49,748 bases of DNA from Acidobacteriota bacterium (GTDB lineage Bacteria > Acidobacteriota > Terriglobia > Acidiferrales > UBA7541). This document shows, one piece after another, positions 3 to 17,765 of the stretch (the stretch's first letter is position 1; the number at the start of each line of letters is the position of its first letter). The notes below the pieces were generated by a model. It did not search any database. It was given only the letters and a program-made list of their open reading frames with translations, and was not told the DNA's origin. Where the stretch lies: the NCBI GenBank assembly GCA_003224525.1, contig QHZB01000182.1, positions 1 through 49,748 of the forward strand. The letters run 5' to 3'. A program made the translations under genes and the position numbers.

Positions 3-365
3 GTGGCGAACGCGGATGGCTACCTCTTCACCAATTCCAAGGGCAAGCCATACCTGTCCGACAACGTTGTGAAATACGGTGTTCATCGGGCAATGGAAAA
101 GCTAGGCATTAAAACTGCGAAAGGTGTTCACATCGGGATTCACTGTTTCCGGCACGGAGTAACCTCGGAGCTGCTCGAAACAGGCACCCCGATTCACGTC
201 GTCACTCGACTTATGCGGCATGCTGATTCTAACGTTACGTTGGAGCATTATGCGCACATCGTTGGCGACGCCGAGCGCGTTGCTTCTGAGAAGTTCTCTC
301 AGCGGATCGGGCAGAAAATCACTCAATTGGAGTCAGACTCTGTAATGGAGTCAGCTCGTAGCTAA
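3..365 (+). CDS. Tyrosine recombinase (phage-type integrase), C-terminal part
   Basis: This is the catalytic C-terminal end of a tyrosine site-specific recombinase; the gene begins outside the window and the frame is open to the left edge. The visible 120 residues carry the box II signature HxxR (H47, R50, within HCFRHG), a second conserved His at position 73 (MRHADS) and the nucleophile Tyr at 83 (LEHYAHI). Family knowledge: such enzymes cut and rejoin DNA through a 3'-phosphotyrosine and often integrate islands at tRNA genes. The stop codon is only about 20 bases from the 3' end of a tRNA gene on the other strand, the usual place for an integrase next to its attachment site. I infer that a mobile element lies to the left. 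It could instead be a leftover integrase from a decayed island; the N-terminal half cannot be judged. Confidence 0.85.
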   Translation: MANADGYLFTNSKGKPYLSDNVVKYGVHRAMEKLGIKTAKGVHIGIHCFRHGVTSELLETGTPIHVVTRLMRHADSNVTLEHYAHIVGDAERVASEKFSQRIGQKITQLESDSVMESARS

Positions 366-385
366 GACCGCGTGAAGAAAGGACT

Positions 386-484
386 TGGCGGAAGCGTGTG
401 GGAGTCGAACCCACCATTCGACCCGCGAAGGACCGAATCGCCAGCTTTGAAGGCCGGGAAAGTCACCGGACTCTTTTCGCCTCC
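386..484 (-). tRNA. selC: tRNA-Sec (anticodon TCA), CCA encoded
   Basis: Read on the minus strand, 99 nt fold as a selenocysteine tRNA. The acceptor stem is GGAGGCG with CGCTTCC, followed by G and an encoded CCA (386-388). The D stem is six base pairs closed by a CGGT tetraloop, typical of bacterial tRNA-Sec. The anticodon loop is CTTCAAA with anticodon TCA (448-450 on the plus strand). A long variable arm of about nine pairs with a TTCG-containing loop follows, then a T arm GTGGG-TTCGACT-CCCAC. The eighth acceptor pair expected in bacterial tRNA-Sec is an A-A mismatch here. It implies that the host decodes UGA as selenocysteine, although selA, selB and selD are not in the window. Confidence 0.93.
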
Positions 485-512: not shown

Positions 513-2999
513 TCAGGCGCGATGGGACGCCAGTGCGGCAGCTTGTTGGGTGCGGATCAACGCAGCAACGAGATCATAAAGCGCGGGACTGGTACAGACT
601 TCATAGTAGGCATGCGTGGAAGGGGCACCGATTTTTCCGTCGGGGAGCAATTGCCGTGCCATGCCTTTTCGCAATACGAGGAGTTCCACGGATTCGCCAA
701 GAGGCACTTCCCCATAATGAAGAGTCACGTTTTCCTTGCCCCATGGTTTGTCCAGCTTCGTTTCGATGGAGTCGAGGGAAATCTCCTCGGAAAGCTTTTG
801 AAAACCCTCCTCGTTGAGCTCGATGCCGTTCATGTTGAAGCGAACCAGGAATTCGTCCAATTCTTCCGCCGACGCCCCTTCCATGGTATTCAGAAACTGA
901 AAAACCGAAAAATGGGTTTTCTGTCCGGCCAGCATGCGCTTTGCCAGCTTGGCGCAGCCGGAAAGACGGTCGGAGAGATTCAGCGCCTTTGAAATCATGA
1001 TGCGCGAATCTCCGTCGGTCCAATAGGTAGGAGCAGACCCCTGAAAAGCAACCCCCAGGCCGAGTTCCAGAGCGGGAAGATTGCTTGCCGACGCGCGTTC
1101 GTTGTAAGAGTTGCAAACGGCAAGAATCTGGCGCGAAAGGATGCAGGCCTTCGCAACCGGCCGGGCATAGGCTACCGTCGATTCCGTTTCGAAAATAGCC
1201 AGAATGATGGCGTCACCTTCGATAAATACCTTCTTCGCCGAATAGCGGTCCAGAAGCTTCTTGACGGGCTCGTGCAAATTCAGACTGAAGTGTGAAGCCG
1301 GGTTTAGTCCGCGCGAGAGCAAATCCTGCGTCATGCGCGTGGAGCCGCGCACGTCGGACTTGATGATGACGTGCGAGACGACGTGGTCCTGCTCCGGCCG
1401 GGCTTCCTCCGGGAGCACGCACTCGTACAGCCGGTTGTTCAAGCGCGACAATTCGCGCGCCTTTTCGGTGGTAACCAGGTTGATGCGCTCCATGCAGGTG
1501 GTCAGATGTTCGGCGTCACGCAGATCCCTTCTCAGACGAAGGAAGTCGTTGGCGAATCGCAGCACGAAGGCCTGCATCTCCTCGCGGGAATAGCGGTGTA
1601 TCTTCTTCGAGAGTTCCTCGATGGCCTTGAGCGACAGCTTCTTCGCGGGAACCTGCTTAATGACCTGCTCGACTTGCTTCAGCTCTTCCTTCGAAACAAG
1701 GGCCTTGCGGAGTTGCTGCAAATGCACGGGCGGGCAGTAATCGGCGGCGATCGGCCGGATTTCATAGCTTGCCAAGATGTGATAGAGAATTTCGAGCTGT
1801 TCGAGACGGTCGAGGAGCCGCGCGAGCAAGCGCGCGCGCGCCGGCGCCTCCGTCTCCGAGGCGGAACTTGCGTCGAATAGCCGCTTCGCGTTTTCTGGCT
1901 CGTTCAGATATTCACCGAGCTTCCCGGCATGATCCTTGACGAAGAAATCGAGCTTTTGCTTGGCCGCGTCGATCTGTGGTCCCAATTCCTCCAGCTTGCA
2001 TTCCTGATGCTTGAGCCGGAGTTCGAGGTCATTCAGCGATGCTTTCAGATCAGCAGGATCACCCGAATTTAGAAACTTCGTGAAGAAACCATCACCCCGG
2101 TCAAGACGCTTGCGGGTGTTTTCGCGCTGTTCCTCGAGGTTTGCAATGTCCGCACGAATCGCCTGCACTGCTTCCAGTAGCGCGGTATGAGCCTGGATGG
2201 CTTCCGTGTGCGCCGGGTCATGGCTGGGTGTAATGCCGGCCTCGCGGAGGAAATCCTGGAAAAGCGCGTCCATAGCCTCAAAGCGGTCGGGGTCACGGGC
2301 ATAATTGCCCAGGAGGATGTAATGCTCCAAAAAGAAAACGTCGTCCTTCCCGCCGTCGAGGAAAATCAGCCGGTTCTTACAAAGCTCGTAATAAGAAGCG
2401 AATTCTTCGCCGAACAGGGCGCGGCGGGCTTTTGCAATGACGTTGTCTTCCACGTCGGCAACAATCTGCGCCACTTGCTGCCCCACGCGGCGGACTACGG
2501 CCCTTCGCGCGGACTGCAGTTCCGACAAGCGTGCTTTGATGACGTGGGCCTGCTGGCTGCGCTCGAATTGCTCGCCTCTCTTGCGTATCCATTCCTTCCC
2601 TTCAAGGATGAGGTTGGCAAATTGATTGCCCATTTCGAAGGTCAGAAATTTTAGCAAGCCCAACCGGAAAAGCACGTCTATCTCTATATTTTTGTAATAC
2701 TTGGCCTGCGTCAGCGAACTTTGCAGCAGCTCGGAGAGCAGCTTGCGAAAGCCCGCACCGTCCGGTCCTCGTGAGGTGCGAAGCTCGATCCCCGGAAGAT
2801 AGGTGCTGGCGGTGCTCTGGCGAATAAGGTCGAAAAGATAATCGCGAGCCGCCTGGACAAACTTCGGGCTCAAGAATACATCGTGGTGGATGTTATCCAC
2901 TCCGATCGCCAGCGATCCCATCGGGATCGTGACGCTGTAGCTCTTGAGTTCCGTCAGGGCCTCTTCGGTGGCACTGGGCGTTAGAAGTTCGTTGGGCAT
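513..2999 (-). CDS. Large coiled-coil protein with class III nucleotide-cyclase-like domain
   Basis: 828 residues, no signal peptide and no obvious membrane segment. The first 530 residues are helical and charged, with strong coiled-coil tendency around 140-190, 265-360 and 395-520. Residues about 543-690 resemble a class III adenylate/guanylate cyclase catalytic domain: a metal-binding Asp in SDVRGST (D549), a second Asp in IEGDAIILAIFE (D596), and an N-x-x-x-R pair (N674, R678 in ALNLSDRLSG), where cyclases place the residues that stabilise the transition state. The domain is divergent, so the nucleotide made, if any, cannot be read. It stands alone beside tRNA-Sec, transcribed towards it, with 124 bases separating it from tsaE. 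It could be cargo left by an integrated element, or a resident signalling protein. The cyclase assignment is moderate; the biological role is unknown. Confidence 0.6.
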   Translation of the reverse strand: MPNELLTPSATEEALTELKSYSVTIPMGSLAIGVDNIHHDVFLSPKFVQAARDYLFDLIRQSTASTYLPGIELRTSRGPDGAGFRKLLSELLQSSLTQAKYYKNIEIDVLFRLGLLKFLTFEMGNQFANLILEGKEWIRKRGEQFERSQQAHVIKARLSELQSARRAVVRRVGQQVAQIVADVEDNVIAKARRALFGEEFASYYELCKNRLIFLDGGKDDVFFLEHYILLGNYARDPDRFEAMDALFQDFLREAGITPSHDPAHTEAIQAHTALLEAVQAIRADIANLEEQRENTRKRLDRGDGFFTKFLNSGDPADLKASLNDLELRLKHQECKLEELGPQIDAAKQKLDFFVKDHAGKLGEYLNEPENAKRLFDASSASETEAPARARLLARLLDRLEQLEILYHILASYEIRPIAADYCPPVHLQQLRKALVSKEELKQVEQVIKQVPAKKLSLKAIEELSKKIHRYSREEMQAFVLRFANDFLRLRRDLRDAEHLTTCMERINLVTTEKARELSRLNNRLYECVLPEEARPEQDHVVSHVIIKSDVRGSTRMTQDLLSRGLNPASHFSLNLHEPVKKLLDRYSAKKVFIEGDAIILAIFETESTVAYARPVAKACILSRQILAVCNSYNERASASNLPALELGLGVAFQGSAPTYWTDGDSRIMISKALNLSDRLSGCAKLAKRMLAGQKTHFSVFQFLNTMEGASAEELDEFLVRFNMNGIELNEEGFQKLSEEISLDSIETKLDKPWGKENVTLHYGEVPLGESVELLVLRKGMARQLLPDGKIGAPSTHAYYEVCTSPALYDLVAALIRTQQAAALASHRA

Positions 3000-15039: not shown

Positions 15040-17064
15040 CTACCCCGGGATAATCCGCGGAGTCAGGAAGAACATCAGTTCCTGCGACGTAGTAGAAACG
15101 TTGGTCCGCTTGAAGAGATGCCCGATCAGCGGCAAGCTGCCCACGAGTGGAACCTGTTGGATGTCCGTGCGCTGCGCGGAGATGATGATGCCGCCGATTA
15201 CGACGGTACCGCCATCGGCCACGGTCACCTTGGTTTCCGCCGACTCGGTATTGAGAGCCGGGATTCCCGACACGCGAGGGATACCGGCATCGATCTGCGT
15301 ATTCTCAACGAGCACGTCCATGAACACGGTGCCTTCCGCGGTGATCTGCGGCGTCACTTCCAGTTTCAACACGGCGTCAATGAACTGCACCGAGATTGTG
15401 TTATTGATCGTCGTCTGAATCGGAATCTTAGTACCCTGCTTGACCGTCGCTTTCTCGTTGTTCTGCGTGGTGATCTTGGGTTTCGAAAGGAGCTTGCCGA
15501 CGCCTTTGGCTTCCGCCGCGGTGATGAAGAAGTCAACCGCAAAGTTAGGTGAACGATGCCCAAGGAACAGTCCACTCGTCGGAGCAACAGCTCCGAGGTT
15601 GGTGTTCAGCGGCAGGTTGCTAGTCCCCGCAGTCGTATAAAACGGCGGCGGGGTACTCGTGACATTGCTGGAACCGACCGTCGAATCTCCGCCCATGATT
15701 GACCGGCCGCTCGTAGTTTGTCCCGCAAAGCCTAACTGCGTGCCGATATCCAAAGCGAAGGAACGTGAAGCGGAAACGACACGCGCTTCGATTTCCACCT
15801 GCTGCGACTTGCGGTCCAGCTGGCGGATCAGGTTATCGATGACTGGAATGACCGACGGAATGTCGCGAATGATGATCTGGTTCGAGCGGTCATCATACAA
15901 AATATCACCGCGCGAACTGAGGAACTTCTTTAGTGTAGGCGCCATCGAAGCCGCCTTGGCATAGCTGAGTACACGGGTCACGGTCACCGGAGCGATCGCT
16001 TCGGCTTGCGCCTTTTCCAGATCGCGCATCGTTTCCGCTTCACTCTTCAGCGTGGAGCGGGTCGCGATGCGCAGAACGTTGCCGTTTAGCTGTTTGTCGA
16101 GGCTGTTGTTCTGCATCACGATGTCGAGCGCCTGGTCCCATGGCACTTCATCCAGCACGATCGTAAGGCTCCCCTTGACCGCGGGATCCAGAACCACGTT
16201 CAGTCCGCTGATTTCGTGAATCAGCCGGAAGAAGTCTTTGAGGTCAACGTCTTTCAGGTTTACGGAGATCGGCTCACCGGTATATTTTCCCGCTGCCGGA
16301 GCAGGAGGCGCTCCCGCCGGGGCCTGTGTGGCCGACGACGTCGCCATCGTCGTGGCTGCGGTGTTTGCCTGCTGCACTGCTTGCTGGGCGGCCGCTTGTT
16401 GCGTCGTGGAATCCGGCCGAACAGGTTCCTTCCTGCCGCCGAACGATGCCAGGGTGACTGAGGGCTGGGTCAGTTCGCCTGGCAAGGCGAAGCGAGGAGC
16501 AGAAATCTTCCAATCTTTGGACGAGCGTCCTGCAGCCCGGCGGGGCGACGCCGCGCTGTAACGGAATTCCGGACGCGCCTTCTCATTCTCGAGTGACGCC
16601 AGAGTTGTCACGCTTGACACCGGCTCCACAGGAGTCGTCGACGGACTCTCGAAGTAGATGACCACCGCCTGGCCATCGCGTGAAATCTGATAAGGAGTCG
16701 CCGTCGTTAGATCGACAACCACGCGCGCCACATCCGGACGGTATTGTCCGCTGCGCACTCCGCGCACGGGAGCGGATATTCCCGGGATGACCGTCTTGTC
16801 GACCGCCAGCCGCGCTCCAGCAAAATCCAGCACCACACGATCCGGGTTTTGCATGCGGCCGGCGTGTACGTCGAGACGTCCTTCGCCTTCCACACGAACC
16901 GCCGCCCGTTGCGGCGCTTGGGTAATGGCAACGCTGGAGATCACCGCTGCGGTCGCCGTTGCGCCAACGCGCGCCTGCGTTTGCGCAAGCACGGGGCTGC
17001 TCGCCAGCGCCATGCCTGCAAGGATCAGGTAGCCATGCCGAAGGGCCGGCCAATTCGTCTTCAT
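15040..17064 (-). CDS. pilQ: Type IV pilus secretin
   Basis: PilQ forms the outer-membrane pore through which the pilus is extruded. The 674-residue precursor has a signal peptide ending near AQTQA, an AMIN domain (about 40-150) that binds peptidoglycan, an Ala/Thr-rich linker (205-250), a secretin/TonB short N-terminal domain (ISVNLKDVDLKDFFRLI), a secretin N1 domain (LSYAKAASMAPTLKKFL) and the C-terminal secretin domain (from KPKITTQNNEKATV to LMFFLTPRIIPG) with the conserved VPLVGSLPLIGHLFKR. One AMIN domain is visible, where Myxococcus PilQ has several. The ATG overlaps the stop of pilP by four bases (ATGA). Last gene of the pilMNOPQ operon. Confidence 0.95.
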   Translation of the reverse strand: MKTNWPALRHGYLILAGMALASSPVLAQTQARVGATATAAVISSVAITQAPQRAAVRVEGEGRLDVHAGRMQNPDRVVLDFAGARLAVDKTVIPGISAPVRGVRSGQYRPDVARVVVDLTTATPYQISRDGQAVVIYFESPSTTPVEPVSSVTTLASLENEKARPEFRYSAASPRRAAGRSSKDWKISAPRFALPGELTQPSVTLASFGGRKEPVRPDSTTQQAAAQQAVQQANTAATTMATSSATQAPAGAPPAPAAGKYTGEPISVNLKDVDLKDFFRLIHEISGLNVVLDPAVKGSLTIVLDEVPWDQALDIVMQNNSLDKQLNGNVLRIATRSTLKSEAETMRDLEKAQAEAIAPVTVTRVLSYAKAASMAPTLKKFLSSRGDILYDDRSNQIIIRDIPSVIPVIDNLIRQLDRKSQQVEIEARVVSASRSFALDIGTQLGFAGQTTSGRSIMGGDSTVGSSNVTSTPPPFYTTAGTSNLPLNTNLGAVAPTSGLFLGHRSPNFAVDFFITAAEAKGVGKLLSKPKITTQNNEKATVKQGTKIPIQTTINNTISVQFIDAVLKLEVTPQITAEGTVFMDVLVENTQIDAGIPRVSGIPALNTESAETKVTVADGGTVVIGGIIISAQRTDIQQVPLVGSLPLIGHLFKRTNVSTTSQELMFFLTPRIIPG

Positions 17065-17765
17065 TGCTGTTCTCCTGGACTGGAGTAAATTCTCTTATTT
17101 ACCTGGTGCTCGACGGGCTTCCCGAAGGCATCTTTTCCTTCTTCATGGAAGGAAACGCCATCCATCGAAATCTTTTCTACGCTGCCGTCATACAGACGGT
17201 CGCCTTCACGCAGGAAGTAGGTCCGCGCTTGCGGGTTCGAAACCACTGCGATCATCCCATTCGGGGCGCGCACGATGCCGTCAAGACGCAATGTGCTAAC
17301 CTGCAAACCGAGTTTGCCCGGAGGAAGAATCGCATTAGTCTTAGTCTGCCGGCCAATCAAGGATTCAAAAGGATCACGGCGAGCCTGCTTCAATTCGCTT
17401 TCCGCGGCCGCCGGTGCGGTGCCTGGAGTAGCACGCTTCTCCACTGCTCTTACCGTCGCTTTCGCAACCGGCTTCGCCGGCCTCTTCGCTCCAGGCTTTC
17501 CCGAAGGCTTGACTGCGGGTTTCCCGGTCGGTTTGGCAGCTTGTGGTGCGGGTTTGGTCGAGGCTGGTACTGCCGGCTTGGCCGTTTGCTGTGCGGGTTT
17601 GCGCGCAGCTGGTGCCGCTGGCTTGGCTGCTTGCGGCGTGGGCTTGCCCGCGTTTCCCAGTGCGGACTTCACACTGTTGGGCGTTGACGGGTTCACCTGC
17701 GCCCGCAATCCGGGCGTCGCTGCTGCGATCAAAATCGCTAGTCCGAGAGTTATCGCTGAACGCAT
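17061..17765 (-). CDS. pilP: Type IV pilus alignment protein PilP, with long Ala/Pro/Lys-rich linker
   Basis: 234 residues. A cleavable signal sequence (about 1-22) is followed by an unusually long low-complexity stretch (about 40-115) built from repeats of the type KPAxQxAKPA and GKPxxKP, rich in Ala, Pro and Lys. The folded domain is at the C terminus: RRDPFESLIG (about 130), LRLDGIVRAPNGMIAVVSNP, and TYFLREGDRLYDGSVEKIS, the beta-sandwich that contacts PilQ. I see no lipobox, so it may not be a lipoprotein as in Neisseria. It bridges inner-membrane PilN/PilO and the secretin across the periplasm; the linker probably spans the peptidoglycan. Assignment rests on the domain and the position between pilO and pilQ. 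Confidence 0.85.
   Translation of the reverse strand: MRSAITLGLAILIAAATPGLRAQVNPSTPNSVKSALGNAGKPTPQAAKPAAPAARKPAQQTAKPAVPASTKPAPQAAKPTGKPAVKPSGKPGAKRPAKPVAKATVRAVEKRATPGTAPAAAESELKQARRDPFESLIGRQTKTNAILPPGKLGLQVSTLRLDGIVRAPNGMIAVVSNPQARTYFLREGDRLYDGSVEKISMDGVSFHEEGKDAFGKPVEHQVNKRIYSSPGEQQ

Follow-up and report, generated by a model that had tools for sequence, protein, structure and literature searches.

The left end of an Acidobacteriota contig as the very probable junction of an element integrated at tRNA-Sec, an integration hotspot in its genus

Integration sites in tRNA genes reportedly include a class, set out by Williams in 2002, that involves the T-loop and the 3' end. According to the accessible part of one source, a block of identity in this class runs from the T-loop to the 3' end and restores the tRNA (PMC2647930). 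Enterobacteria carry LEE, PAI-1 of strain 536 and SPI-3 at selC, as stated in excerpts of a second source (PMC6174562). The Pf-tRNA-Sec prophages of Pseudomonas aeruginosa have a tyrosine integrase, and their attB, the last 27 nt of tRNA-Sec, is printed in the available text as GGGTTCGACTCCCACTGCCTTCCGCCA, a block that starts just ahead of the T-loop and ends with CCA (PMC7549136). The first-pass annotation of the locus described here had called tRNA-Sec a less usual target; since the selC islands and the Pf phages, as presented in those parts of the two papers, already make the site a classic one, we do not retain that description (PMC6174562, PMC7549136). For the acidobacterium Ca. Solibacter usitatus, the available sections of one paper describe numerous phage integrases, 16 candidate islands containing tRNA genes and the lack of an intact prophage, and make no mention of tRNA-Sec (PMC3174227). 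No paper came up in literature searches combining tRNA-Sec with Acidobacteria or Acidobacteriota, and a looser search gave none on the topic by title among the matches listed.

The window, by which we mean the whole stretch of DNA analyzed (49748 nt), is the entire contig C41 of a genome in 516 contigs (6.47 Mb), and its base 1 is the contig edge (Table 1). ARAGORN called the tRNA at this edge as tRNA-SeC with anticodon tca, and the Rfam tRNA-Sec model was matched over positions 1–91 of 91 (63.8 bits, gathering score 47). The window genome has selB, scoring above its cut-off, which provides a plausible user for the tRNA-Sec gene. The recombinase ORF matched the Phage_integrase profile (E = 5.8e-11, 42.9 bits, cut-off 27.1) over profile positions 92–168 of 172 only, and therefore represents just the C-terminal part of an integrase. 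It is 89% identical to residues 335–452 of a 456-aa homologue that adjoins tRNA-Sec in a relative, G008; this homologue covers profile positions 10–168, with N-terminal SAM-like domains matching below cut-off. Because the gene meets the contig edge and matches the homologue from residue 335, its apparent start codon at position 3 is an artefact. Alignment with relatives made HCFR, RHAD and EHYAH visible (HxxR, second His and Tyr), which we take to be the catalytic residues, including the nucleophilic Tyr, in the C-terminal half of tyrosine recombinases. Matches elsewhere to the missing N-terminal part (335 residues) did not exceed 36% identity. An integrase cut at the end of contig C172 was considered as the missing part and rejected, since its identity to the A type, the type of the window integrase, is just 26%. 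The integrase and tRNA-Sec genes converge, with 20 bp (366–385) between the integrase stop and the encoded CCA; ARAGORN, Rfam and PF00589 thus agree with the arrangement first proposed, an intact tRNA-Sec 3' end facing a recombinase 3' end about 20 bases away. A Pfam search of the 828-aa protein on the chromosomal side gave no match. Among 28 further integrase loci in the window genome, six hold a tRNA (L012, L014, L015, L016, L019 and L028), with integrases near tRNA-Asp, -Arg (two), -Glu, -Ser and -Met.

Table 1. Features at the left end of the window, and families of arms beyond the attachment core
Feature	Positions	Strand	Basis or description
Tyrosine recombinase (A-type integrase), C-terminal 120 codons, gene cut by contig edge	3..365	+	PF00589
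Arm-type repeat AATTGGAGTCA within integrase 3' end, putative integrase arm site	325..335	+	Recurrence in arms
Second arm repeat TAATGGAGTCA, degenerate, 2 mismatches	343..353	+	Sequence
att core, last 24 nt of tRNA-Sec, T-loop (403–409) to CCA	386..409	-	Recurrence in relatives and phage contigs
tRNA-Sec gene (selC), intact, CCA encoded	386..484	-	ARAGORN, Rfam RF01852
828-aa gene, chromosomal side, 5' of tRNA-Sec	513..2999	-	Kept upstream in relatives
Arm family R1			ACTTACGAGGAA or close variant, 25 bp on
Arm family R2			Doubled AATTGGAGTCA
Arm family R3			AATTGGTACA-like repeats

We consider it very probable (about 0.93) that the left end of the window is the tRNA-proximal junction, that is, one end, of an integrated element, of which 385 bp lie inside the window. 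A lambda-type tyrosine integrase would have recombined the attP of the element with an attB consisting of the last 24 nt of tRNA-Sec, and the element-borne copy of this block would restore the tRNA. The integrase gene would then end just within the element, with arm repeats overlapping its 3' end, and the element would extend leftward, off the contig. We infer that the window integrase acts on the tRNA-Sec site.

The attachment core, TTCGACTCCCACACGCTTCCGCCA, was searched in 36 genomes of the genus at up to 3 mismatches with a reversed pattern as control. Besides the tRNA genes themselves, 17 orphan cores, which lack a tRNA body, were found in 12 of the 36 genomes, and the control gave 0 in all 36. 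Ten of the 17 are exact and occur in 7 genomes, compared with ~2e-6 exact orphan cores expected by chance (estimated from the base composition of the window, taking 4.9 Mb per genome). ARAGORN detected no tRNA at the orphan cores, the one on contig C17 of the window genome having only a distant tRNA-Leu. G029 has two exact orphan cores although no tRNA-Sec was found in it. The weakest sites are those with 3 mismatches: G030:C403, which has an R1-like arm, and G035:C62:11299 and G033:C142, which have no known arm. As the core begins at the first T-loop base, crossover likely takes place within the 7-nt T-loop.

Most sites sort, beyond core base 24, into the few arm families of Table 1. The 11-mer AATTGGAGTCA (up to 1 mismatch) is present in one or two copies in 4/4 A-type proximal arms and in two copies in 3/3 R2 distal arms, where mononucleotide shuffling gave a mean of 0.002 copies per 150 bp; single matches also occur in arms of G034 and G036. 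The window's proximal arm has one exact and one degenerate copy, the latter at the position where G008 and G032 have an exact second copy, and in relatives both arms carry repeats. These repeats look like arm sites of a lambda-type integrase flanking the core on both sides.

The first-pass annotation had pointed to the flanks of relatives without the element, and two genomes supplied apparently empty sites. In G027 the tRNA-Sec 3' end directly abuts a gene block with a DUF5666 gene, and in G026 tRNA-Sec is likewise joined to the DUF5666-gene side. In G028 the DUF5666 block ends at the homologous place in a 23/24 copy of the core, followed by unrelated DNA, and its tRNA-Sec lies on a separate contig with an element arm. 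The final 40–70 bp ahead of the core differ among these three genomes, so old short changes are possible there. The homologous downstream block of the window genome is on contig C170, where homology to G028 ends ~65 bp before the expected core and gives way to other DNA with a GFO_IDH_MocA domain. This break indicates that tRNA-Sec and its former neighbour are on separate contigs in the window genome too.

The other end of the element was not found in clean form in the window genome. On C170, which carries the homologous downstream flank, the 13 kb searched contained no core with 6 mismatches or fewer, and the final 1 kb none with 9 or fewer. The R2 arm, the type expected for an A-type element, was sought using the G008 arm, with no match in what was a weak search run without a positive control. 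The sole second core in the window genome at up to 3 mismatches is C17:183–206 (22/24, ~2e-4 expected by chance). Its ACTTACGAGGAA sits at +25, the offset also seen in G018 and G011, and the site is probably a genuine att-like one. We tried it as the other end of the window element and do not count it as support, since its arm is of the R1 type; in G018 and G011, what follows an arm of this type is integrase B rather than A. For the second copy of the tRNA end proposed earlier as the other attachment site, this 22/24 site with another arm type is the only candidate in the window genome at up to 3 mismatches.

This absence from the C170 and R2-arm searches bears on a variant of our reading, compatible with it, in which the element was lost or broken long ago and only an integrase tail has stayed behind at tRNA-Sec. 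The degenerate second arm repeat of the window points the same way, as do G032, G005 and G024, where tRNA-Sec adjoins integrase stubs only (94, 102 and 134 aa, respectively). The integrase frame itself speaks for a gene in better condition: its 120 codons are open, with the 89% identity given above to an uninterrupted 456-aa homologue, and it is the contig edge that ends the frame. We regard decay as a tentative possibility, to be taken seriously without being preferred; the window element could be an old remnant.

For comparison of tRNA-Sec flanks, we used the 31 of the 36 genomes in which tRNA-Sec was found (the genus is as grouped computationally and includes the window genome). Matches of at least 58 bits that ARAGORN also called were accepted as tRNA-Sec genes, weaker matches being mostly other tRNAs; G014, G015, G021, G025 and G029 had no strong match. 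The 828-aa gene is upstream of tRNA-Sec in 28/31 genomes (exceptions G017, G034 and G035), and also in 7/7 genomes compared, out of 25, from other genera or families. The 3' side varies between genomes within the genus. In four genomes from another family of the order this side is collinear, with redoxin, FAD oxidoreductase and VWA genes (the latter two named by eye). A convergent tyrosine recombinase gene, 10–61 bp from the tRNA-Sec end, is present in 8/31 genomes (G000, G002, G005, G008, G016, G024, G030 and G032), and also in G036, from another genus of the same family. Pfam confirmed six of these nine recombinases; those of G005, G024 and G032 rest on a genome-derived profile plus alignment. 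The count of 8/31 is a lower bound, because the flank profile was built from the window genome's own integrases, up to 10 kb of flank was read, and flanks were shorter than 3 kb in 13/31 genomes. Contigs end within 600 bp of the tRNA-Sec end in 6/31 genomes. Such short flanks and contig ends are expected of a repeat that breaks assembly, and suggest that contigs of such genomes are prone to break at tRNA-Sec.

With the window genome in 516 contigs, a chimera of binning or scaffolding, in which the assembler joined foreign DNA to the contig, was also weighed. G032, which has two tRNA-Sec copies across an N gap, possibly through scaffolding, indicates that such data may contain errors of this kind. 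An A-type integrase nevertheless adjoins tRNA-Sec in the same arrangement in G008, G030 and G032, with flanks 82–86% identical in DNA over 304–381 bp, and we consider a chimera highly improbable. Some chromosomal recombinases are resident, such as XerC/D, yet a resident recombinase that adjoins tRNA-Sec by chance, with no element, is likewise highly improbable, given that the gene was not found at this place in 23/31 genomes (within 10 kb or to the contig end, with the 13 short flanks included), that several recombinase types occur where one is present, and that G026 and G027 appear empty. The finding of recombinases in 8/31 genomes, with their variety of types, thus favors an integrated element over a resident gene, as the first-pass annotation had proposed.

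Further evidence on use of the site came from viral contigs. Four IMG/VR contigs, all from one metagenome, contain the exact core, and two of them have it near both ends: G061 (17.7 kb; 75–98 and 17644–17667) and G062 (15.5 kb; 74–97 and 15368–15391). In each, one core is the 3' end of a tRNA-Sec with a convergent integrase, the contig stopping 2–4 nt before the full 99-nt tRNA, and the same 74-bp flank precedes the other core copy in both. The integrase of G061 is of type D (80% to that of G016) and the integrase of G062 of type E (88% to that of G036). G061 encodes a large terminase, portal, head protease, major head protein, adaptors, tail terminator and major tail protein. G062 encodes a head protease, two major-head-like proteins, a small terminase and an HNH protein; of its 26 listed ORFs, 19 were scanned, and these included neither a large terminase nor a portal. 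Its 15.3-kb element (L182, IMG/VR 3300050821_015087) may represent a capsid-forming satellite, or else a prophage that has decayed. Together, the two contigs indicate that alternative phage-like elements occupy one tRNA-Sec site. Relatives of the A-type integrase in IMG/VR could not be confirmed. We infer that the window element shared the life cycle of these elements with phage genes. A serine-recombinase-like (DNA invertase) gene was seen at L183:709–1374; the same contig carries a tyrosine-integrase-like gene adjoining a tRNA-Sec core.

Taken together, the conserved 5' gene with a variable 3' side, the orphan cores, the empty and occupied relatives and the repeat-bounded phage contigs support tRNA-Sec as an integration hotspot in the genus, used by several kinds of element, phage-like ones included. 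The hotspot suspected for this lineage from the window alone is upheld in particular by orphan tRNA ends in 12/36 genomes and by the two phage contigs with the repeat near both ends. Elements have accreted in tandem in some genomes, G018 having two cores 1,083 bp apart. The 1.1-kb segment between these cores (L117:10239–11345) holds an A-type integrase stub and a putative toxin-antitoxin-like pair (Gp49-like/antidote).

The 28 recombinases placed in a tree include one group formed by types A, D, E and G (84/89, drawn open), and the pair of A-type integrases from the window and G008 is fully supported. The same group includes two window-genome integrases without known tRNA-Sec use. Elsewhere in the tree are type B, whose genes adjoin orphan cores in G018 and G011, and the G002 integrase, type F. 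Use of tRNA-Sec, mapped as a label, needs 4 changes on the tree, at least two of them forced by well-supported branches. Integrase F was set aside as weak proof of a further lineage, since no orphan core was found in G002 and the Tyr column holds Cys. The integrase on contig C516 of the window genome, sister to type E, was likewise rejected as a user of the Sec site: by eye, it adjoins another tRNA-like 3' end, not the Sec core.

The tRNA-Sec genes themselves differ in ways that might reflect this traffic. G028 has an upstream protein 95–96% identical to those of G012 and G027, and its 5' flank closely matches theirs up to the first tRNA base. Compared with G012 and G027, its tRNA-Sec (L081/L185, G028:C117:1468–1562) shows 23 and 24 differences in 99 positions; from nucleotide 29 onward, it has exactly the sequence of the tRNA-Sec genes of the distant G018, G030 and G032. 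In G010, a genome of ~10 contigs, two different tRNA-Sec genes lie 3.65 kb apart on C2 (L065:12065–15812), with a 956-aa fn3-domain gene between them and a flank past the downstream copy that aligns with G007. These patterns raise the idea that elements may bring or swap tRNA-Sec alleles. We rejected the divergent allele as element cargo, as it occurs only in tRNA-Sec genes, in 4/36 genomes, and has no exact match in IMG/VR. A broader proposal, that tRNA-Sec is a docking site common to at least two integrase lineages (A/D/E/G, B and perhaps F) whose traffic also replaces the tRNA body, seems to us rather unlikely as a whole.

These observations extend the classic tRNA-Sec hotspot to another phylum. 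For a group of soil Acidobacteria they provide one defined 24-nt attB and candidate arm repeats, along with relatives in which the site appears empty or is occupied and two phage elements bounded by the repeat. Like the enterobacterial selC islands, going by the excerpts of that source, the sites described here hold foreign DNA with integrases beside tRNA-Sec, and different elements reuse them (PMC6174562); the phylum is different, and the 385 bp of element in the window hold no virulence cargo. The Pf phages are filamentous, whereas G061 has terminase, portal, head and tail genes of the tailed-phage kind and G062 has head genes. At the level of the attachment site the likeness is closer: the Pf attB printed in the available text is nearly the same block as the 24-nt core (PMC7549136), and this core extends from the T-loop to the tRNA 3' end, as in the T-loop/3'-end class in the accessible part of its description (PMC2647930).
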